Source of the DNA: a virus
Reading direction: 5' to 3' (one strand)
IMG/VR virus record: IMGVR_UViG_3300026276_000087
Location: 1 to 29,598 of that record
DNA: 29,598 nt
How positions within the stretch are numbered: position 1 is the first letter of the stretch; each line of letters begins with the position of its first letter. The notes under the pieces were generated by a model. That model was given only the letters and a program-made list of their open reading frames with translations, had not been told where the DNA came from and made no database searches. The position numbers and the translations under genes are program-made. Shown here in pieces: positions 2,218 to 28,243 of the stretch.

Positions 2218-2712
2218 ATGGCTTTAGAAATTATAATGGACACTACTAAAAAACATGGCTTTATTTGCTTGGATGAGAGTCTTGTAGATGCTACATCTGA
2301 TTTGGCTGAGGCCTTTAGGTATAAAGAGTATACGGAGTATGGGGCTAACGAAGATATGGAGGCGTTTTCGAAATATAAGCCTCCTATTGTTTGGCTTGTT
2401 GGTCACGGGGAGCGCGGAAAAACTTCTTTTGTTAATAAGGATGGAACTAAAAATATAGTTGAAATGAGAGTTATAGTTCAGTGGTGTATGGCGAATAAGG
2501 TTGAGTATCTAATTGATACGGCCTGCCATCCTAAGAGTAGGGCGCGTATCGTCAGTGAAATGGGTGCTGGTTTTAAATATTTTTGCAAAAACAGAGATGA
2601 GGAAGTTCAGGTTATTAGGACATATGTAACGGGCAAAAAAAACGATGAAGAGTTGAATGTATGGGAGGTTCGTGATTGGTGGGAGAAAGAAGGCTTTTCT
2701 CAGTCCAGCTGA
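2218..2712 (+). CDS. Caspase-like (clan CD) cysteine-peptidase candidate
   Basis: A 164-aa protein in visibly AT-richer DNA than the surrounding phage genes. Its centre has the two signatures of clan CD peptidases (caspase, gingipain, CHAT): a hydrophobic strand ending in His-Gly (IVWLVGHG, His63) and, 40 residues on, a second hydrophobic strand ending in a Cys (VEYLIDTACHP, Cys103). The spacing suits a His/Cys dyad. No signal peptide or membrane segment is visible, so it should be cytoplasmic. It has its own GAGG ribosome-binding site and runs against the leftward operon, so it is probably transcribed in the lysogen as a moron. Stand-alone caspase-like domains are often effectors of abortive defence; that role here is inference. 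An inactive relative is possible. Confidence 0.55.
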   Translation: MALEIIMDTTKKHGFICLDESLVDATSDLAEAFRYKEYTEYGANEDMEAFSKYKPPIVWLVGHGERGKTSFVNKDGTKNIVEMRVIVQWCMANKVEYLIDTACHPKSRARIVSEMGAGFKYFCKNRDEEVQVIRTYVTGKKNDEELNVWEVRDWWEKEGFSQSS

Positions 2713-2759
2713 ACATCAAAAATTTCGTGAATGTCGCAATGTGAGCGATTGACTGTGCC

Positions 2760-2784
2760 CCGCTATTGGGCTGCACAATAGCGG
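2760..2784. terminator. Hairpin between convergent genes
   Basis: A perfect 9-bp stem (CCGCTATTG / CAATAGCGG) with a 7-base loop lies 48 bases after the caspase-like gene. There is no T-run, so it is terminator-like but not a textbook intrinsic terminator. A second hairpin follows at 2818-2835. Confidence 0.45.
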
Positions 2785-2817
2785 CTGACTTTGAAGGGGG
2801 AGGAGTTGTAGAGGGGT

Positions 2818-2835
2818 GGAGTACGGGTGTACTCC
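2818..2835. terminator. Hairpin just beyond the 2838 stop codon
   Basis: A perfect 7-bp stem (GGAGTAC / GTACTCC) with loop GGGT abuts the end of the leftward 2838 gene. It could act at the 3' end of the rightward cargo transcript. No T-run follows on either strand. Confidence 0.4.
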
Positions 2836-2837
2836 TG

Positions 2838-3338
2838 TCAGGCTACAGCTGACCTTTCGGCTTTCTTCTGTTGGCTTGCCTTGAAGTGGTCATATGGCCC
2901 GTCTGGCAACGAAGCGATCGCGTTCGCCGCCTTGATCAGCAGATCTCCCAACCGCGCCTGCGCCCTCGGCACGAAGTACTTAAAGCGGGAGTCGGCTGGG
3001 TAGTAATTGTCGTAGGCCATGCGACTGCACAGCGTTGACGCCTCATCGAGTCCGCAACTGCGGCCGTAGGCGATCAGATTTTGCCGCTCTTCTTGAAGAG
3101 CGTCGGCGAGCTGATCTGCTGCGTTCAGGCGCAGTTGCAGGGCTTGCTCGCGAGCTTTGAGGCCCTCCAAGTGCTGCGCCAGCGTGCACGCGAAGTCACC
3201 GGCCAGCCGCTCATTGATGTACTGGCGGTAGTCGTGACGCTTGAGGACGGTCTTGAACAGGTTGTCGATGTAGCCGCGTCCGCCATCTGGCGTGTTCAGG
3301 TCAAAGCTGGGCCCGACCGGTTTGTTTTCTGTGGGCAT
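2838..3338 (-). CDS. Hypothetical phage protein with coiled-coil
   Basis: A 166-aa product starting MPTENKPVGP at the ATG at 3338, chosen because AGGA lies about six bases upstream; an in-frame ATG at 3359 has no such site. Residues about 55-95 are rich in Gln, Glu, Leu and Ala (LKAREQALQLRLNAADQLAD), predicting a coiled coil. The C-terminal part ends in a short lysine-rich tail. No enzyme motif is visible. The first bases of this gene and its leader recur downstream as direct repeats (see 3324-3348 and 3644-3668). Confidence 0.72.
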   Translation of the reverse strand: MPTENKPVGPSFDLNTPDGGRGYIDNLFKTVLKRHDYRQYINERLAGDFACTLAQHLEGLKAREQALQLRLNAADQLADALQEERQNLIAYGRSCGLDEASTLCSRMAYDNYYPADSRFKYFVPRAQARLGDLLIKAANAIASLPDGPYDHFKASQQKKAERSAVA

Positions 3339-3348
3339 GGGGCGTCCT
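3324..3348. repeat. Direct repeat copy 1 (start region of the 2838 gene)
   Basis: Twenty-five bases, beginning GTTTTCTGTGGG and ending GGGGCGTCCT, are identical at 3644-3668. The segment covers the start codon and ribosome-binding site of the leftward gene. It is followed by a CCGGG-TCATG-CCCGG hairpin. Confidence 0.85.
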
Positions 3349-3409
3349 ATCCGGGTCATGCCCGGTCAACTGGGTGCTACGATGGCGCCTCACTCAATCG
3401 AGAAGCACC

Positions 3410-3643
3410 ATGACCAAGCACGACATTTATGACGAGCACGAAGGATTTCGGCTCTGGAACTACATGGAGTGCGAAACACTGGAGAGCGGCCAGGAGGTCT
3501 GGCGGATCAACGTCGAAGTGAAACGCGTTGATGAGGTGGTGATTCCGGTTGTTGCTGGTGACCAGACTTACCCTGACCGTGGGTTGGCGCAGGTGGCTGG
3601 ACGAGAGCTGGGCGCCAAGATGGTAGCCGAGCGAGGTCTATAG
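3410..3643 (+). CDS. Small rightward cargo protein, unknown
   Basis: A 77-aa acidic protein (MTKHDIYDEHEGFRLW...). I use the ATG at 3410; GAGAAG upstream is a weak ribosome-binding site. The sequence alternates polar and hydrophobic residues (VWRINVEVKRVDEVVIPVVAG), suggesting a small beta-rich domain followed by a helix (RGLAQVAGRELGAKMVAERGL). I do not recognise a family. It runs against the leftward operon and is flanked by the 25-bp direct repeats, which supports its being a separately acquired unit. Confidence 0.65.
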   Translation: MTKHDIYDEHEGFRLWNYMECETLESGQEVWRINVEVKRVDEVVIPVVAGDQTYPDRGLAQVAGRELGAKMVAERGL

Positions 3644-3668
3644 GTTTTCTGTGGGCATGGGGCGTCCT
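3644..3668. repeat. Direct repeat copy 2
   Basis: Identical over 25 bases to 3324-3348. Here it no longer starts a gene, so it looks like a vestige of the 5' end of the 2838 gene, left when the 3410 unit was added. Confidence 0.85.
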
Positions 3669-3719
3669 TAGTCATTGATCGACTACAGTTGAAAGGGCAT
3701 TCATAGGGAGCGCTGAAAG

Positions 3720-3974
3720 ATGGAGTGTTTAATCTGCGGAGCCCCAGCAATTCAGCTGGTACTGGTAGGCCAATTTGTGGAAGTTGACTGCCCTAGATGC
3801 GGTTACTACGGAGTCCCGAAACCGCTGGTCGACGAGATGTCGCTGAAAAAGCAAAAACTTCACAAAGAGCGCACTCGGGCCTATTTGGCGATGCGAGCAG
3901 AGAACAAGCAGTCGCCGTGGATTACTCCGGTCGATATAAATATTCACCAGCTATTGGATATATCGCTCGCCTAA
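3720..3974 (+). CDS. Small zinc-ribbon cargo protein
   Basis: An 84-aa protein with two Cys pairs, CLICG at residues 3-7 and CPRCG at about 24-28, the classic zinc-ribbon spacing. A basic helix follows (LKKQKLHKERTRAYLAMRAENK). Such proteins commonly bind nucleic acid. It is rightward, with GGGAG about ten bases upstream of the ATG, and lies between repeat copies 2 and 3. The function is unknown; the metal-binding inference is reasonable from the cysteines. Confidence 0.72.
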   Translation: MECLICGAPAIQLVLVGQFVEVDCPRCGYYGVPKPLVDEMSLKKQKLHKERTRAYLAMRAENKQSPWITPVDINIHQLLDISLA

Positions 3975-3984
3975 GGCATTGCGC

Positions 3985-4017
3985 GGCATGGTGCGTCCTA
4001 TGCCGGGTCATGCCCGG
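3985..4017. repeat. Repeat copy 3 with CCGGG hairpin
   Basis: Matches the block at 3334-3365 (GGCATGGGGCGTCCT plus the following CCGGG-TCATG-CCCGG stem-loop) with one mismatch and one inserted base. It precedes the 4088 cargo gene just as the first copy precedes the 3410 gene. Confidence 0.8.
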
Positions 4018-4087
4018 GAGGTGGCGGATTTTAGTTTGTGGGCTATTGCTTAAAGGCCGGCATGGAGCCGGATCAAGGAGTGATCTG

Positions 4088-4309
4088 ATGAGCGAGTATC
4101 GGAAACTGACTCAGGCTGAACTGTCTGAAGCCCTCAATATGCTTAAGAGCGAGATCGCGCTGTATGTCGCTGACAACGAACCAATGGCTGATGGTTCTGG
4201 CCATTGGGTGTTCTTTTCCTTGTCAGCACCTAAAAGCATTCTATCTCGCCTTCGAGTTGGCGGTGATCATCGGATGGCGCTTGGTAAGTCTTGGTCGGTG
4301 CCGCGCTGA
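4088..4309 (+). CDS. Small cargo protein, paralogue of the 7107 product
   Basis: A 73-aa product (MSEYRKLTQAELSEALNM...). GGAG stands about seven bases before the ATG at 4088. Its middle, LYVADNEPMADGSGHWVFFS, resembles LFIVHIEPKADGTGYFLMPH of the 7107 product, and both continue to an LGK/LGNKW motif, so the two form a small family with an EPxADGxG core. The function is unknown. It runs against the leftward operon directly beyond the end of the methyltransferase gene. Confidence 0.68.
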   Translation: MSEYRKLTQAELSEALNMLKSEIALYVADNEPMADGSGHWVFFSLSAPKSILSRLRVGGDHRMALGKSWSVPR

Positions 4310-4370
4310 CGCAATTGCCACGCTTCAGAGCGACCCTGGTAATGCGGTCCGGTCTTTCTCGCTTGACTGA

Positions 4371-6284
4371 TCAGGCCGCGAGGCGCTGGTAAAGCTCGAT
4401 GATGTCGGCGGCGTTGGCCGCGACCAGCGCCTCAGCTTCATCGGGACAGACGCTGTTTCCGATCAGCCGGACCTGGTCCGTTTTGTTGATTGGGCGCCAC
4501 TCTTCGGCGCCGGTCACCGGGTCGACGAACAGCCCGCGGTCGATGATGTAGTTCTCGTCAAAGCCTTGGGCGCGCTTCAGTTCAGGCGGTTGGAGCATGC
4601 GTAGCGTGATGTCCACCAGCACGTAACCGCCAACTATGACCATCTCGGCCGGATCTTTGAAGTGCTCCGGCAGGTGCTCGTGCATAAATGCGGCGCAGCG
4701 GCGGGCGCCCTCCATTTGCTCCGGCGTGAGAGTGTCCGGCACCTGCACGACCTCGACCAGCGCGACGCGGTCCTTTGTCGGTAGGGTGTGCATCGGCTCC
4801 GTGAGTGACACGCCGTCGGTATGGGCGCCGTAGTACTTCACCAGGTAGGCGCTCACCAGACGCTGATTGGCGCCTGACTGGCAGATGGTCGAGAGCGGCG
4901 AATCGGCGGCCCGGCCATCGCCGTCGTAGAAACCGCCATTCGCCTGCTCGAAGAACGCCGCCGATACCGCATGGTGCCCTGAGCTGGTGGCGACTACGCC
5001 AAGCGGGTTGGCTACGTCAGCTCCGACCGATCCTTTTCGCAACGTGACCATGTTCGCAGCTACAAGGGCTTGCTCGCCCCTGTTGGCGCCGGTCACCGTG
5101 CGGAAAGCATCATCCGGCGAATACCCGCTGCGCTCCCCGTGGTGCGTAAGGTGGGTCAGGTGGCAGGCCGCCAGCGCGAAGTGCCCACCCTTTACTTGAG
5201 CGACTTGCGTGCGCAGCGGCTCGACCGCGCTGAAGTTGCGCTGCGCAGATCCGTTTGCGCATTCGGTGAGAAAGGGGGTGGCTACCGGCTGCACCAAGGC
5301 GTGATGCGTTCCGCCGGCGCTGATGGTCGATAGCGATTCGTCGGAACCGTGGGTGCTGGTGTGTGCCGCCGAGGTTCCGCGCATCGGGACAATGAACGGC
5401 TTCATGCTGGTCAGCACATGGCGCCAGCAACCCTTGGCCACGCGACGCATCGTGTTCACCGCCATCGGCTTTTCGCGGAAGATCGTTCGTCCCAGGTTGC
5501 TCCAGTCGATGCACTCCGCGGCCGTGCGCCAAGGCTTCTGTTTTGCTGTCGGCTTCTTGTGATGTGTTGGCTCGGGCCAGACGATTGGCTTTCCGTCACT
5601 GCGGGCCACCAGATACAGCCTCTTACGGATGGTCGGGGCGCCGGAGTTCGATGCGATGCGCTCGCGCCATTCGACGTTGTAGCCAAGGCCTCGCACCAGG
5701 CATTCCACCGGTACGAATTCGCCGATAGCTTGCAGAATCTCCGGCATGTCCGAGTGATCCGACGGGAGCCCGGTACTGAGCGCAGCAATGAACGACTTGA
5801 AGGTACGCCCACGCTCAGCCTTGATCGGCTGACCCGCCTCGTCAATGGGGCCCCAGTCGCGGAACTCTTCAACATTCTCCAGGAACATCAGTCGTGGCCG
5901 GGTGGCATGGGCCCAACGAACAACCACCCAGGCCAAGCCGCGTACACCGCGGTCGCGGGGCGCGCCGCCCTTGGCCTTGCTGTGGTGGCGGCAGTCCGGC
6001 GAAGCCCAGAGGATGCCAACGGGCTGGCCACCGGTGGCCAGCACAGGATCGACTTCAAACACGTCCGCCACGTAGTGCGCTGTCTGAGGGTGATTCGCAC
6101 GGTGCACGGCCAGGGCAATCGGGTTGTGGTTAACAGCCACGTCCGGTTCCCGATACGCTCGAGCAATGGCATCGCTGGCACCGCCAGCGCCGGCGAACAG
6201 GTCCACCACCAGCTCTTTCTGGAATGGCAGGCCCATGCTTGGCTGGCCATGGATGAACTGGGGTTTCTTCTGTTGTGCGGACAT
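4371..6284 (-). CDS. DNA (cytosine-5) methyltransferase
   Basis: A 637-aa C5-cytosine methyltransferase. Motif I is DLFAGAGGASDA (residues 28-39, S-adenosylmethionine binding); motif IV is SPDCRHHSKAKGG with the nucleophile Cys98; motif VI is ENV (136-138); motif VIII is RKRLYLVARSD; and GNSV near the C-terminus is the motif X region. The catalytic loop reads SPDC, not the usual GPPC, as I recall for some phage enzymes. The central region between motifs VIII and IX is long and repeats short THxxLxT-like segments, fitting a large target-recognition region. GAGGA lies six bases before the ATG. It has no partner endonuclease here, so it probably protects phage DNA from host restriction. Confidence 0.93.
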   Translation of the reverse strand: MSAQQKKPQFIHGQPSMGLPFQKELVVDLFAGAGGASDAIARAYREPDVAVNHNPIALAVHRANHPQTAHYVADVFEVDPVLATGGQPVGILWASPDCRHHSKAKGGAPRDRGVRGLAWVVVRWAHATRPRLMFLENVEEFRDWGPIDEAGQPIKAERGRTFKSFIAALSTGLPSDHSDMPEILQAIGEFVPVECLVRGLGYNVEWRERIASNSGAPTIRKRLYLVARSDGKPIVWPEPTHHKKPTAKQKPWRTAAECIDWSNLGRTIFREKPMAVNTMRRVAKGCWRHVLTSMKPFIVPMRGTSAAHTSTHGSDESLSTISAGGTHHALVQPVATPFLTECANGSAQRNFSAVEPLRTQVAQVKGGHFALAACHLTHLTHHGERSGYSPDDAFRTVTGANRGEQALVAANMVTLRKGSVGADVANPLGVVATSSGHHAVSAAFFEQANGGFYDGDGRAADSPLSTICQSGANQRLVSAYLVKYYGAHTDGVSLTEPMHTLPTKDRVALVEVVQVPDTLTPEQMEGARRCAAFMHEHLPEHFKDPAEMVIVGGYVLVDITLRMLQPPELKRAQGFDENYIIDRGLFVDPVTGAEEWRPINKTDQVRLIGNSVCPDEAEALVAANAADIIELYQRLAA

Positions 6285-6371
6285 AGAGGATCCTCGCCGG
6301 CTGGCGTGATTCGTTGAAGTGGGGTATTTGTGTTCGGCACGGCATGGGGCCGGATGACGGAGAGCAGTTGG

Positions 6372-7014: not shown

Positions 7015-7036
7015 AGGCGCCGCCCTCCGTGACCGG
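7015..7036. repeat. 22-bp repeat copy 1
   Basis: A block beginning AGGCGCCGCCC and ending CCGTGACCGG is identical at 8761-8782. In both places it lies upstream of a leftward core gene and upstream of a rightward cargo gene, so it marks cargo junctions. Confidence 0.85.
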
Positions 7037-8760: not shown

Positions 8761-8782
8761 AGGCGCCGCCCTCCGTGACCGG
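8761..8782. repeat. 22-bp repeat copy 2
   Basis: Identical to 7015-7036. Here it lies between the NdpA start codon and the 8855 cargo gene. Confidence 0.85.
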
Positions 8783-9876: not shown

Positions 9877-10395
9877 TCATCGAAACGCCGGCTCCAGCTT
9901 CGGATAGTCAATGTCGAAATCCTTGATTAGCCGGTAGAGCAGGGTTGAGCTGATGCCCAGGTTTTCACAGCACCTCGTACGGTTGACGCTTCTCGCTATG
10001 CAATCCTTCACCTGGATGACCAGCATCGCGTCTGACTCAGCAGCCGTTTTGTTCGATGCGTAGGCCTTCTTAGGACCTGCTGTGAACTCGATTGCATAGC
10101 GCCCGGCGATCCCTCGAAGAACGCCCATCGTTATGCCTTCCTGCTCGCATATCTCGCTTCGGTTCAGGGTTTTAGCCAAGGCACGAATTCGCGTTACCTG
10201 CTGTGCCGTCTCGGCTTTAACTGCGGCACTCTGGAAGTTTGGCGCTCGGCGCCCCTCAGATATCGACTTCAAGGGAGCATTGGCTTCGGGTTCGCGGATC
10301 TCGCCACCCTTCGCCAGGAACTGCGCGATCTGGGCGGATAGCTCGTTGGCGAACGGTTGGCGCTCGTTTATGACGCTGAGGTGATTGCTGATCAT
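9877..10395 (-). CDS. Helix-turn-helix phage protein
   Basis: A 172-aa protein whose start overlaps the stop of the upstream exonuclease gene (ATGA at 10392-10395). Two segments look like tandem homeodomain-type HTH units: ALAKTLNRSEICEQEGITMGVLRGIAGR (about 73-100) and CIARSVNRTRCCENLGISSTLLYRLIKD (about 131-158). Each has a 'helix, R/E, C, ExxGI, recognition helix' pattern. It may be a DNA-binding regulator or an architectural partner of the recombination proteins. No specific family name is offered. Confidence 0.75.
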   Translation of the reverse strand: MISNHLSVINERQPFANELSAQIAQFLAKGGEIREPEANAPLKSISEGRRAPNFQSAAVKAETAQQVTRIRALAKTLNRSEICEQEGITMGVLRGIAGRYAIEFTAGPKKAYASNKTAAESDAMLVIQVKDCIARSVNRTRCCENLGISSTLLYRLIKDFDIDYPKLEPAFR

Positions 10396-12035
10396 GCAGC
10401 CACCTTCACCAGCCTCACGCCGGCCATGCTGAACTTGGAGCCCTGGTCTGCGACAAGTGCGTCGAGCTTTTCCCAGTCCACAGTCAACATCGAGATTGGG
10501 GCTTGGCCATAGGCTACGGCTTTGATCAGCGCTTCGAGGTCGTAGACGTCTGCCTGCATCGCTACCGGTTGAGTGGTTTGCGCTGCAGCAGGCTTCATGG
10601 CTGTTTGAGCGATTGGCGCAGCTCTGTTCGGCACAGAGGTCGCGACAAATGCAGACTGAACAACAGGTTCAACGACAGCCTTTGCTTTAGTTTCGTCTTC
10701 GATCCGCTGCAGCTCTTCGTTTCGAATCCGCGTCCGCGTGGCTTCTGCTTTCACTTCTTCGGCTTTCTGGTGGTCGGCGATTCGCACCTTGATCAGCGCC
10801 ACCAGGTCGTCGTTGGCCTTCAGAACAAGCTGCTGGAGGTCGTTGAACAAAAACGTGTGGTCTACGGCGAGTTCGCCATAGCTGGCCAGGTTGGCGCGAA
10901 TGCTGTCACCGATCTGACTGGCGGCAATCTTGGCCCGGGCCAGCTCCGAGTCGGCTGCATCGCGCAGACTGCTGATGGACTTTTTGCCCTTGATGGCGCC
11001 GGCGAAGTCAGCAGGCACTGCCGGCATCCGTGCTTTACCGCCCAGCGATGCGTTGATCTGATCGATGTGCGCCTGAAGCGCCTTGGCGGCATTCATGACG
11101 ATGTCTTGGCGGATACTCAGTTTGCGGGCCGTCACCAGTTTGTTGAGCATCAGTCGTTTGTCGCGTGCTTCGGCGCTGATCTCGGTGATTGTGCGGAAGA
11201 GAAGGTCGATGGATTCCGTTTGACTCAGCGCGTGTCGCTTGGCTGCCTCCAGACGCTCTTCCACATCAGCGCACCACTTGACGGTTTTCTCGGCGTCAGC
11301 GAAGTGCTGGTCGGTTTCCAGTTCGGTATTGATCGACGCGAAAACGGCCAGCGAGTGAGCCTTGAACTGTTCCAGGTTGCTGGCGGTGACCATGCCAGTG
11401 ACTTCGATGCGCAGCGCGGGCAGGCTATCCGGAGTCTTGCCGACGGCCTCAGGCATGACCTCGACCGGAGTGAAGTCGAGCAGGTCGGCTTGGAACTGCT
11501 TCCAACCAGCGACGAGCGTCGCGGCGCGGCCCGGTACCGGTGTGTATTCCATCGACACGAAGTTGTCTTCAGTGCCGTCGGAGCAAACGAAGATCACTTT
11601 CTCGGCGCCGCTCACCAACAGCTGCTGCTCGAGCTGCCAGTAATAGTGCGGGTCCAGGTTGCCGGCCAGCACGTCGGCGGCCAGTTGTTCGTTCCACATT
11701 TTGTGCTCGAACAGCGTCTCGCCGAGCATGGTGCAGCCGTCGAGCGAAGCGAGCAGGTCGCCATCGGTACCGACAACGGGAAAGAGGTCTTCACCGATCC
11801 GTACCTCCAGAATCGGGCGGGCCATGGCTTCAGCTTCGTGGCCTTTGTCGAACAGGTATTTCTGCACCCACCACGACACGTCGCGGTCGAGGCCGGTCTT
11901 TTTAGCACTAAGCAGTTCGGTGCGTTTCATCTGCTTCGAGGCGCCCATCATGGCTGGCGCCTCGGAGGCGGTGAAGTAGTTGGCGCGGAGCGCATGCCAG
12001 GCTTCGGAGCCCTGAGCTACGTTATGAATCTTCAT
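10392..12035 (-). CDS. YqaJ/lambda-Exo-type exonuclease with long C-terminal extension
   Basis: A 547-aa recombination nuclease. The N-terminal third is the YqaJ fold of PD-(D/E)XK nucleases: FTASEAPAMMGAS near residue 21, KGHEAEA (Glu67), LLASLDG (Asp99), the E-x-K core FEHKMW (Glu110, Lys112) and YYWQLEQQLLVSG (Gln134). It digests one DNA strand to give a substrate for the annealing protein encoded just upstream, with which it overlaps by ATGA. Residues about 225-450 form a helical, coiled-coil-rich extension and the last 100 residues are Ala/Gln-rich, making it much longer than lambda Exo. Family call firm. Confidence 0.92.
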   Translation of the reverse strand: MKIHNVAQGSEAWHALRANYFTASEAPAMMGASKQMKRTELLSAKKTGLDRDVSWWVQKYLFDKGHEAEAMARPILEVRIGEDLFPVVGTDGDLLASLDGCTMLGETLFEHKMWNEQLAADVLAGNLDPHYYWQLEQQLLVSGAEKVIFVCSDGTEDNFVSMEYTPVPGRAATLVAGWKQFQADLLDFTPVEVMPEAVGKTPDSLPALRIEVTGMVTASNLEQFKAHSLAVFASINTELETDQHFADAEKTVKWCADVEERLEAAKRHALSQTESIDLLFRTITEISAEARDKRLMLNKLVTARKLSIRQDIVMNAAKALQAHIDQINASLGGKARMPAVPADFAGAIKGKKSISSLRDAADSELARAKIAASQIGDSIRANLASYGELAVDHTFLFNDLQQLVLKANDDLVALIKVRIADHQKAEEVKAEATRTRIRNEELQRIEDETKAKAVVEPVVQSAFVATSVPNRAAPIAQTAMKPAAAQTTQPVAMQADVYDLEALIKAVAYGQAPISMLTVDWEKLDALVADQGSKFSMAGVRLVKVAA

Positions 12036-12922
12036 TCGGTTTCTCCTGTAATGGGCGCCATGCGGTGGATGCGATCGGTCTGCTCGGCGCTGAGCGTGTA
12101 TTTGGATTCAAGGAAGGCGATCAGGCTTTCAGCGTCTGTCTTTCCTTGGTCGACGCCGCTTTGCCAGGTAGGCAGCATCGTTTCGAACTTTTCTTCCGGG
12201 TAGCTGGGTAACGCCGTCGGTGTCGGGCTTTTGCGGGGTGAAACATCGCGGGCGGGCGGGGCGCTTTCCTCGAGCTCGTCCGGGCTGTAGACGCCTAGGA
12301 TCACGTCGGGGCAATACAGTCGTGACCAGCGCTTGGTAGCGAGGTAGGCCAACTGCTGGCGCGGATCGTCAGCCCAAAGCGTGCTGTTGCGGGTGCGGGC
12401 CTGGGCCAGAAGCAGCTCCAGAACACGCGGTTCTGCTTCGCCGCGGAAGGTGGCCCAGACCTTCACGCCCAGACCTTCCTCGTCTTCGAGTTTCCAGCCG
12501 GGCTGGCGGTATTGTTTACCTTCGCTATTGGTCTTGATGTCGAACTTACCGATCACCTTTTCCCAAGCGCCGTACCACTCGTAGTGGAGGCGGTCTAGAA
12601 CCGGTGCGCAGGTGGTGATCACCGCGTTGACCAACTGAGCCTCGTAGCCGAGCACGCCGTTCACCAGGTGCGTTTTCTGCGCAACCGCGAAGGGGTTCAT
12701 CTTCCACTGCATCGACTGCATGATTACCGCGAGGCAGTCGGCCGAGTTGCCGTTGAAGTGCTTCGGCACCGTGGCGCGGCCGGTGGCCATGACGTCGGCC
12801 AGGCGCATCATCTTGTCGAGACTGTCGCCGTCGAGCACCAGGGCGCTGGTGCTGGTCGCTGCATGGGGAAGAACGTGCAGAGTTTGTTCGTGCGCCACCG
12901 GCGCCACGCTTTGTGCGGACAT
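12032..12922 (-). CDS. recT: RecT-family single-strand annealing protein
   Basis: A 296-aa RecT/Bet-type recombinase. Diagnostic stretches are LADVMATGRATVPKHFNGNSADCLAVIMQSMQWKMNPFAVAQKTHLVNGVLGYEAQLVNAVI (residues about 42-103) and DPRQQLAYLATKRWSRLYCPDVILGVYSPDE (about 185-215). The C-terminal 80 residues are a variable, proline-containing tail. It anneals the strands produced by the exonuclease, giving phage-encoded homologous recombination. AAGGA lies eight bases before the ATG. It is immediately upstream of the exonuclease with a stop/start overlap. Confidence 0.93.
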   Translation of the reverse strand: MSAQSVAPVAHEQTLHVLPHAATSTSALVLDGDSLDKMMRLADVMATGRATVPKHFNGNSADCLAVIMQSMQWKMNPFAVAQKTHLVNGVLGYEAQLVNAVITTCAPVLDRLHYEWYGAWEKVIGKFDIKTNSEGKQYRQPGWKLEDEEGLGVKVWATFRGEAEPRVLELLLAQARTRNSTLWADDPRQQLAYLATKRWSRLYCPDVILGVYSPDELEESAPPARDVSPRKSPTPTALPSYPEEKFETMLPTWQSGVDQGKTDAESLIAFLESKYTLSAEQTDRIHRMAPITGETE

Positions 12923-21456: not shown

Positions 21457-22302
21457 ATGCAGATTTCAAGCGCTTCTGTAAATACCCAGACCAATGTCGC
21501 GACACGTTTTGTTAATTCGGAAAACGTGTCGCGTACCGAAATCGTCAGCCTTGTAGATGGCGAGGCGGTGACAACCACTCTCGCCATTGCTGCAGGGTGC
21601 GAAGTGGATCACGCCAGCGTTATCAAGCTGGCCCGTACCTACCAGTCCGATCTTCAAGAGTTCGGACTTCTGGATTTCAAATCCGAAAGTACAGGGGGGC
21701 GCCCCACAGAGTTCGTTCTCCTCAACGAACAGCAGTCGACGCTGATCCTGACTTATATGCGCAACAGCCCGATTGTTCGCGAATTCAAGAAACGCCTCGT
21801 TAAAGACTTCTGGCGCCTGATTCACGCAAAGCCAACCTTCGACTACGCCGCCGCCCTGAGCGATCCGCGCACCTTACTGGCCTTACTCACGGACAACGTG
21901 AAGAAGGTCGTCGCCCTGGAAGCGGACAACACCGAGCTTTCCAATGAAAACCTGATGCTCGAGCAGAAGGTCGCCGCCGACGCGCCGAAGACAGCTTTCT
22001 TCGACGCGGTGACCGTCACCCACGAAACCTACTCGGTGGCCGAAGCCGCAAAGCTGATCGGCACCGGCCAGAACCGCCTGATGGCGTTCCTGCGTCAGCG
22101 CCGCTGGGTCACCCTTCGCAAAAACGAACCGATGCAGGGCCCGATTGAGTCCGGCTACCTCACTGCGAAGCTCAGCACCTTCGAGCATCCAGAGAATGGC
22201 AAGACCACCGTGTCCACTCCACGAGTAACCGGTAAGGGGCTGACGAAGCTTCAGGCTCTCTGGGCGCGCCGTGACGCCGATCTTCTCGGAGGTCCTCTGT
22301 GA
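21457..22302 (+). CDS. Rha/KilAC-type phage antirepressor
   Basis: A 281-aa two-domain protein. The N-terminal Rha domain shows DHASVIKLARTYQSDLQEFGLLDFKSESTGGRPTEFVLLNEQQSTLILTYMRNSPIVREFKKRLVKDFW (about 50-125). The C-terminal KilAC/ANT domain shows YSVAEAAKLIGTGQNRLMAFLRQRRWV and a final VTGKGLTKLQALW. Such proteins relieve repression or otherwise regulate lysogeny. GAGGTG precedes the ATG. A perfect 13-bp inverted repeat lies inside codons 14-26. Confidence 0.9.
   Translation: MQISSASVNTQTNVATRFVNSENVSRTEIVSLVDGEAVTTTLAIAAGCEVDHASVIKLARTYQSDLQEFGLLDFKSESTGGRPTEFVLLNEQQSTLILTYMRNSPIVREFKKRLVKDFWRLIHAKPTFDYAAALSDPRTLLALLTDNVKKVVALEADNTELSNENLMLEQKVAADAPKTAFFDAVTVTHETYSVAEAAKLIGTGQNRLMAFLRQRRWVTLRKNEPMQGPIESGYLTAKLSTFEHPENGKTTVSTPRVTGKGLTKLQALWARRDADLLGGPL
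21498..21533. repeat. CGCGACAC inverted repeat inside the antirepressor gene
   Basis: Arms 21498-21510 (CGCGACACGTTTT) and 21521-21533 are perfect reverse complements with a 10-base loop. The same CGCGACAC core recurs as an inverted repeat at 28193-28228. It could be an operator or a hairpin in the mRNA; see findings. Confidence 0.85.
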
Positions 22303-22959: not shown

Positions 22960-23882
22960 GCATGGGCCTTATGGTCGCCGCGATGAAGCTTCGCGTCGGC
23001 AATCCGTTGCGCAAGCTGGTGCTGATCAAGCTCGCAGACAACGCGAGCGATATCGGTGAATGCTGGCCGTCCTACCAACACATCGCCGACCAGTGCGAGA
23101 TCAGCAAGCGGTCTGTCATGAATCACATCTCCGCCTTGTGTGAAGCTGGACTGTTGCGCAAGGAGATCCGGAAGGGTGGACCGAAGGGAAATTCGTCGAA
23201 CGTTTACTTCCTGACGCTGGATGGTGGTGCACCTCCTGCACCAGGGGTAGTGCAGAAGATTCACCCGGGTAGTGCAGCGGGTTCACCCCCTAGTGAATCT
23301 CCTGCACCAGGGGGTAGTGCAGCAGTTGCACCCAGAACCAGTAACTCTCTTGAACCCGTCATGGAACCGGTCATTGAACCAATTACGCCCCAGGCTTCCG
23401 CCAAGGTCGTGCCGGTTCAATCTCGCAGCTTGGTGTTGGTGGTTGACCGAACCGAAGCCCCCCGGGTTGAAATCCCCGCCGACATGCCCGGCCCCAAAGA
23501 CCAGACCTGCAAGACGTTCAAGACTTGGGCGAATTACGCCATGGCTTACCGCAAACGCTACGGCGCCTGGCCGGTGTGGAATGCCAAGGTTGGCGGCCAG
23601 CTCGGGCAGCTTGTCAGCCGCCTCGGTGCTGATGTTGCCCATCACGTCGCCGCCCACTTCCTGAAAACCAGCGACGCCGCCGTGCTGCGCAAGTGCCACA
23701 GCCTCAACGAGCTGCTGGCCAACGCCGAGAGCTATCACACCCAGTGGGTGACCGGTCAGCGCATCAACGGGACCACGGCCCGCCAGATGGAGCGCACCGA
23801 GGCGAACCTCTCCGCAGCAGAGCAGGCCGCGCAAATGGTCTTGGCCAAGCGCCAGGCGGGAGAGCGCAATGAATACCTCTGA
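22956..23882 (+). CDS. O-like replication initiator
   Basis: A 308-aa protein with an N-terminal HTH_36 winged helix (NPLRKLVLIKLADNASDIGECWPSYQHIADQCEISKRSVMNHISALCEAGLLRKE, about 16-70). A Pro/Ser/Gly-rich linker (about 88-120) is encoded by iteron-like repeats. The C-terminal domain begins near KTFKTWANYAMAYRKRYGAWPVWN. Lambda O has the same plan with the origin inside the gene. GGAGG precedes the ATG, which overlaps the previous stop. It is followed by a second replication-type gene, as O is followed by P. Confidence 0.85.
   Translation: MSMGLMVAAMKLRVGNPLRKLVLIKLADNASDIGECWPSYQHIADQCEISKRSVMNHISALCEAGLLRKEIRKGGPKGNSSNVYFLTLDGGAPPAPGVVQKIHPGSAAGSPPSESPAPGGSAAVAPRTSNSLEPVMEPVIEPITPQASAKVVPVQSRSLVLVVDRTEAPRVEIPADMPGPKDQTCKTFKTWANYAMAYRKRYGAWPVWNAKVGGQLGQLVSRLGADVAHHVAAHFLKTSDAAVLRKCHSLNELLANAESYHTQWVTGQRINGTTARQMERTEANLSAAEQAAQMVLAKRQAGERNEYL
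23238..23322. other. Iteron-like repeats, candidate replication origin
   Basis: Four related units lie about 22 bp apart: 23238-23255 (GCACCAGGGGTAGTGCAG), 23261-23277 (TCACCCGGGTAGTGCAG), 23283-23298 (degenerate, TCACCCCCTAGTGAAT) and 23304-23322 (GCACCAGGGGGTAGTGCAG). They fall in the linker-coding part of the initiator gene, exactly where lambda O carries its iterons. Confidence 0.6.
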
Positions 23883-28192: not shown

Positions 28193-28228
28193 CGCGACAC
28201 GTTTCGCGAATGAGCAAATTGTGTCGCG
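28193..28228. repeat. CGCGACAC inverted repeat upstream of the 28244 gene
   Basis: CGCGACACGTTT at the left pairs with AAATTGTGTCGCG at the right; the 8-bp CGCGACAC cores match perfectly and the next bases partly. It lies between the holin stop and the ribosome-binding site of the next gene. The same core occurs at 21498-21533 inside the antirepressor gene. Confidence 0.75.
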
Positions 28229-28243
28229 AAATTGGAGATGAGC

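Follow-up and report, generated by a model that had tools for sequence, protein, structure and literature searches.

A short element that occurs three times in a 29,598-nt stretch of viral DNA (IMG/VR record IMGVR_UViG_3300026276_000087, positions 1 to 29,598; the window, below, means this whole stretch) is probably a portable translation-start cassette of temperate Pseudomonas phages, made up of a 5′ hairpin, a Shine-Dalgarno sequence (SD), an ATG and the codons for MPTEN, which stands before unrelated accessory genes that are exchanged at this point. In the window its copies bracket two small genes, 3410 and 3720, and an earlier note had taken this arrangement for the footprint of cargo that entered by duplication of a core gene start. 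The repeats, with the genes and signals among them, are these:

3322..3369, minus strand: copy 1, the full live start cassette, with the hairpin at 3351-3365, SD AGGA at 3345-3348, start codon at 3336-3338 and MPTEN codons at 3324-3338; a 51-bit profile match.
3644..3668, minus strand: copy 2, an orphan 25-bp core (SD, ATG and PTEN codons), which is a live start in the related stretch L167.
3669..3685, minus strand: replacement hairpin TAGTC-GATCAAT-GACTA, abutting the copy 2 SD and also present in L167; p=0.027 when taken alone.
3985..4023, minus strand: copy 3, an orphan cassette with its hairpin at 4003-4017; an orphan in L167 and in a further relative, L178, too.
2838..3338, minus strand: gene 2838, 166 aa, beginning MPTENKPVGPSFDLNTPDGG; started by copy 1.
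3410..3643, plus strand: gene 3410, 77 aa, divergent from copy 1 and bracketed by copies 1 and 2.
3375..3383, plus strand: extended -10-like promoter TGCTACGAT of gene 3410, predicted solely from its conservation in relatives.
3720..3974, plus strand: gene 3720, 84 aa, zinc-ribbon-like (CxxC..CxxC), bracketed by copies 2 and 3.

The 25-bp block GTTTTCTGTGGGCATGGGGCGTCCT stands at 3324-3348 and again at 3644-3668 with no mismatch, a repeat for which simple arithmetic gives a chance of about 4e-7 within 29.6 kb. The block at 3985-4006 is a third, related copy (86% identity across 22 nt), whose hairpin CCGGGTCATGCCCGG has the same letters as 3351-3365. These blocks had been described in the earlier note, together with their bracketing of the two genes, and all of this holds. 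The CCGGG hairpin credited to the third block is, however, present in copy 1 too, so the full copies are 1 and 3. Copy 2 is without it, and carries a different hairpin at the equivalent position before the SD. A profile derived from relatives finds exactly three matches in the window (51, 39 and 24 bits), all on the minus strand, with genes 3410 and 3720 running the opposite way. Read on that strand, copy 1 is CCGGGCATGACCCGG-ATAGGACGCCCC-ATG-CCCACAGAAAAC, that is, hairpin, SD, start codon at 3338 and MPTEN codons, and the shared 25 bp comprise the SD, a spacer, the ATG and four more codons. Copy 1 alone starts a gene in the window; the reading frames of copies 2 and 3, MPTENL* (6 codons) and MPRNALGERYIQ* (12 codons), are orphans there. 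For gene 2838 the live start is the ATG at 3338, to which the SD and the beginnings of the homologs point; another ATG, upstream at 3359, lies within the hairpin and is not the start. Rfam gave nothing at gathering threshold in the window, and nothing at E<=5 in 2700-4400.

The element is far from private to this phage. A search by pattern turned up the full cassette in 66 IMG/VR viral-contig stretches, many of them partial, and in 17 Pseudomonas genome stretches, with an open gene after it in nearly all. The 189 distinct live proteins with the shared start fall into 25-29 unrelated clusters, built on the N-terminal 50-60 residues because single linkage on whole proteins fused families that have segments in common. 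Among the proteins are a C5 cytosine methylase, an HNH endonuclease, DUF4406 and nucleoside deoxyribosyltransferase-like proteins, and many without a name. Between clusters, DNA identity is no higher than background beyond roughly -45 and +30, counted from the ATG, although this profile is biased in its core, since the -10 to +14 stretch partly served to select the loci. Loci chosen by gene 3410 alone escape most of that bias, and the divergent minus genes that stand behind the cassette leader in them number 46 distinct ones, which fall into 19 N-terminal clusters and almost all start 70-74 nt from the gene 3410 ATG. Some leaders also precede proteins without MPTEN (MINLFW, MKRIYL, MSPYKI). 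Relatives, not every one of which was scanned whole, usually carry one or two copies per stretch, against three, one of them live, in the window. Among sampled genomes, the exact pattern occurs in 23 of 398 Pseudomonas species; in 274 genomes sampled across the Gammaproteobacteria it is confined to the Pseudomonas genome at the centre of the sample, which leaves 0 of the 273 others, and a reversed-pattern control gave 0 matches. We found no description of the cassette in the open-access literature.

Could the conserved leader be DNA that is bound, rather than RNA that folds? An unlikely, though not negligible, alternative is that palindrome and core form an operator, with a phage or host regulator binding CCGGGCATGRCCCGG to control the divergent pair of minus gene and gene 3410, the repeats being retained for this regulation and the breakpoints being incidental. 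The palindrome is close to the -35 region of the promoter conserved before gene 3410, and covariation in the canonical hairpin does not rise above shuffles or slid controls, which means that its sequence is conserved too and that a DNA-binding site would equally explain it. However, the core is retained in 19 unrelated leaders without the palindrome, the remainder of 29 MPTEN starts that do not match the canonical hairpin pattern after near-canonical and near-identical leaders were removed. In ten of these 19 a hairpin stands 0-3 nt before the SD (each p<=0.05; Fisher p=6e-8 against dinucleotide shuffles), that of copy 2 being one of the ten, whilst several others have no convincing hairpin. 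A stem next to the SD thus often persists through changes of sequence, which favours an RNA role. The SD and five codons are, moreover, conserved at least as much as the palindrome, by two measures of which one is selection-biased. In loci fetched by protein the codons are all but fixed (ACA in 36/37, GAA in 37/37, AAC in 37/37), and ACA is not the commonest threonine codon in the larger genes of the window phage.

Comparison with relatives places the junctions in the repeats, where the earlier note had expected them. Window 3644-3985 matches L167 at 88% identity, and this homology stops at 3644 precisely, where copy 2 has its edge; to the left the two differ, except that copy 1 also matches the L167 core. 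There, copy 2 is the live start of a 213-aa gene (MPTENKIAEPLKVERST...), whereas in the window the word non-functional suits copies 2 and 3 as starts. Neither gene 3410 nor gene 2838 was found in the L167 stretch examined. Another relative, L157, matches the opposite side (3376-3668), and its match overlaps that of L167 in the 3644-3668 core only. In L178, homologs of genes 2838 and 3720 flank a single core with no gene 3410 between them, and copies 1 and 2 of the window both align to this one core. The gene 3410 stop is joined to an MPTEN remnant in about 17 relatives and to different sequences in others. The copy 3 orphan adjoins the end of gene 3720 in the window, L167 and L178, with an additional deletion in the window. 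No cargo-free relative with all three copies, the case that would speak against entry at the repeats, was found among the relatives.

Do these junctions mean, as first suggested, that the start of gene 2838 itself was duplicated in this lineage each time cargo entered? The identity of copies 1 and 2 across 25 bp and the single core at the empty site of L178 are what such duplication would leave, but we consider it improbable: copy 2 and its leader are common to L167, where they head another live gene, the join of gene 3410 to the core recurs in some 17 relatives, and the cassette is population-wide. What survives of the earlier proposal is that the repeats are copies of a gene start, that they bracket the two genes and that junctions fall in them; their source is a widespread cassette found before 25-29 unrelated N-termini, rather than the start of one core gene.

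Several observations weigh against a portable cassette at which genes are exchanged, among them the selection bias, the want of covariation and the hairpin-less leaders given above. L178, on which the empty site depends, shares no more than about 71% identity with the window. It speaks for the cassette that homology ends fall in the three copies in 91 of 215 cases (window 2600-4450 against relatives), against 14.6 expected if uniform, but this expectation overstates the excess because gene ends are natural breakpoints. The join of gene 3410 to copy 2 in about 17 relatives implies that it is old, so that gene 3410 could as well have been lost, through recombination between repeats, as gained; the direction at gene 3410 is not polarised.

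If the portable cassette is the right reading, how would it work? The hairpin, the SD and the A-rich first codons may together make the start independent of upstream or downstream context, in which case any gene joined after the cassette would be expressed. The approximately 25-45 identical bases common to many phages would in turn allow homologous exchange at the cassette, swapping the flanking genes. The enzymes would probably be the phage's own, as the window encodes:

12035..12922, minus strand: a RecT-family annealing recombinase (PF03837, E=4e-42).
10395..12035, minus strand: a YqaJ-type viral exonuclease (PF09588, E=1e-6), likely the partner of RecT.

Rad52-like phage recombinases, RecT included, drive coliphage mosaicism at short or diverged homology (PMC3945230), and RecT might act at the cassette in the same manner. 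Here such exchange would have left each of the two genes between neighbouring copies, gene 3410 between the first and second and gene 3720 between the second and third; copies 2 and 3 themselves would be scars of minus-strand genes since lost.

We think it very unlikely that the repeats are instead the sites of a dedicated site-specific system, such as integron attC-like sites or mobile element ends, inserting the cargo. Single genes flanked by hairpin-bearing repeats do recall cassette arrays; however, these repeats are gene starts and not gene ends, they have no GTTRRRY core, the join varies in leader and gene side among phages, and apart from the phage's own int no integrase was seen nearby. 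Scarcely credible is that the MPTEN proteins are distant homologs with an inherited N-terminus and a diverged remainder, for although they have their first five residues in common, and some clusters a middle segment, they belong to the unrelated Pfam families named above, their likeness is at the DNA level, covers the untranslated leader and ends abruptly, and some leaders join proteins without MPTEN.

The MPTEN cassette (type A) has company. Searching for 16-mers at a fixed distance from starts brought out four further leader families, which behave similarly and likewise precede unrelated genes, and whose cluster counts come from mechanical open reading frames and may include false starts: type B (GCCGCTATAGCGGC + SD; many MPEE proteins, 27 clusters), type C (CCGGCATGGAGCCGG + SD; 38 protein clusters in relatives), type D (CTGCCGGTGAACGGCGGG + SD; 32 clusters) and type E (GGAGGGCGGCGCCT + SD; 18 clusters). 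Two relatives, L036 and L270, are hybrids with a type B leader on a type A core. Three of these families are present in the window:

4055..4087, plus strand: type C leader, hairpin CCGGCATGGAGCCGG (4055-4071) and SD, before gene 4088.
6337-6371, plus strand: a related type C copy, hairpin at 6337-6353, before a small gene.
2750..2797, minus strand: type B orphan remnant CCTTCAAAGTCAGCCGCTAT...ATAGCGG, which heads MPEE proteins elsewhere.
7015-7036 and 8761-8782, minus strand: type E leader, an exact 22-nt repeat AGGCGCCGCCCTCCGTGACCGG.

The type E copy at 7036 precedes the 6999 minus gene, and that at 8782 a minus gene which is NdpA-like by its place in phage PseuP_222. A fixed 3′ border of a gene cassette was also considered and rejected: the candidate motif, at 2778-2797, belongs to a second start-leader family and stands after only 17 of 163 live genes. 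More tentatively, as a real possibility that we would not yet favour, temperate Pseudomonas phages may carry several families of context-insulated start connectors (hairpin, SD and start, types A-E), their accessory regions serving as sockets for RecT-type gene plugging with immediate expression, and N-terminal tags such as MPTEN being by-products of the connectors.

Other features of the window and its relatives are recorded here in their own right. Genes 2838, 3410, 3720 and 4088 belong to no family in Pfam, PHROGs or NCBIfam. The small protein of gene 3410 is widespread in Pseudomonas phages (69 viral-contig relatives, 67-96% identity). Relatives match either residues ~1-82 or ~73-166 of gene 2838, the remaining half differing, and the alignment ends cluster near 3100-3110 (window ~3096-3148), a second joint, within the gene. 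At a number of loci (L113, L120, L122, L124, L282 and others), unrelated genes follow identical sequence resembling the 3′ end of an upstream gene (TTCATCTACAAGGGGCCGAGGCC-ATG, GCCCATGATCTGGTAACGAGGGAGGCTGT-ATG); these are mosaic joints, again at starts, that have no leader hairpin. Further along, a 43-nt inverted repeat (arms 21491-21533 and 28193-28235, 84% complementary) is built on CGCGACACGTTT...CGTGTCGCG, each arm being almost palindromic by itself, and short diverged direct repeats lie at 23227-23333 in a plus-strand gene, in the presumed replication region.

It has long been asked whether phage mosaicism is a product of illegitimate recombination or of short boundary sequences that phages share, and here a large phage group would offer clear borders, open to test, that are start sites at the same time. 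Such borders would show how newly arrived genes get expressed, would help to correct mis-called starts, as with gene 2838, and would offer natural insulated start parts.

How does the cassette compare with systems already described? The ninR region of lambda, with its interlinked genes and repeated start linkers (Kroger and Hobom, 1982), is reportedly a run of small genes that can be exchanged and are joined in similar fashion at their starts; those joins are said to be stop-start overlaps, and are not known to have a 5′ hairpin or shared N-terminal codons. Integron attC sites are a poor comparison, as the copies here are 5′ starts and, as read, contain no GTTRRRY. Closer are the start-associated repeats SAS and ESAS of cluster K mycobacteriophages (Pope et al. 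2011), which lie, within the non-structural genome half, at the translation starts of genes from different families (PMC3203893). The SAS is a 13-bp sequence, GGGATAGGAGCCC, with an SD core, which ends before the start codon and is present in 11-19 copies per genome; about half have an inverted repeat upstream, judged not to form RNA hairpins (PMC3203893). The present cassette likewise has an SD core at a translation start, with AGGA a few nucleotides before the ATG in copy 1 and in relatives, but its core, AGGACKCCCC-ATG-CCYACAGAAAAC, lacks the 13-bp consensus and is conserved through codon 5, it usually occurs in 1-3 copies rather than 11-19 per genome, and, unlike in the SAS, a hairpin tends to persist among its unrelated leaders. 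Short conserved boundary sequences have also been proposed for phage module exchange, for instance by Clark et al. 2001 on HK620 (PMC3029335). As at such lambdoid-type boundaries, it is in the cassette that homology between phages otherwise unlike each other begins or stops (the homology ends counted above; L167, L157 and L178), and exchange by homologous recombination, as proposed for those sequences, is putative here, with RecT and YqaJ both encoded. Unlike them, the border here is a functional-looking start site, with SD and codons, before dozens of gene families in one host genus. Although it would work in the manner of both, the definition of SAS fits it only in part, and the cassette is grouped with phage boundary and start elements, and not with SAS.
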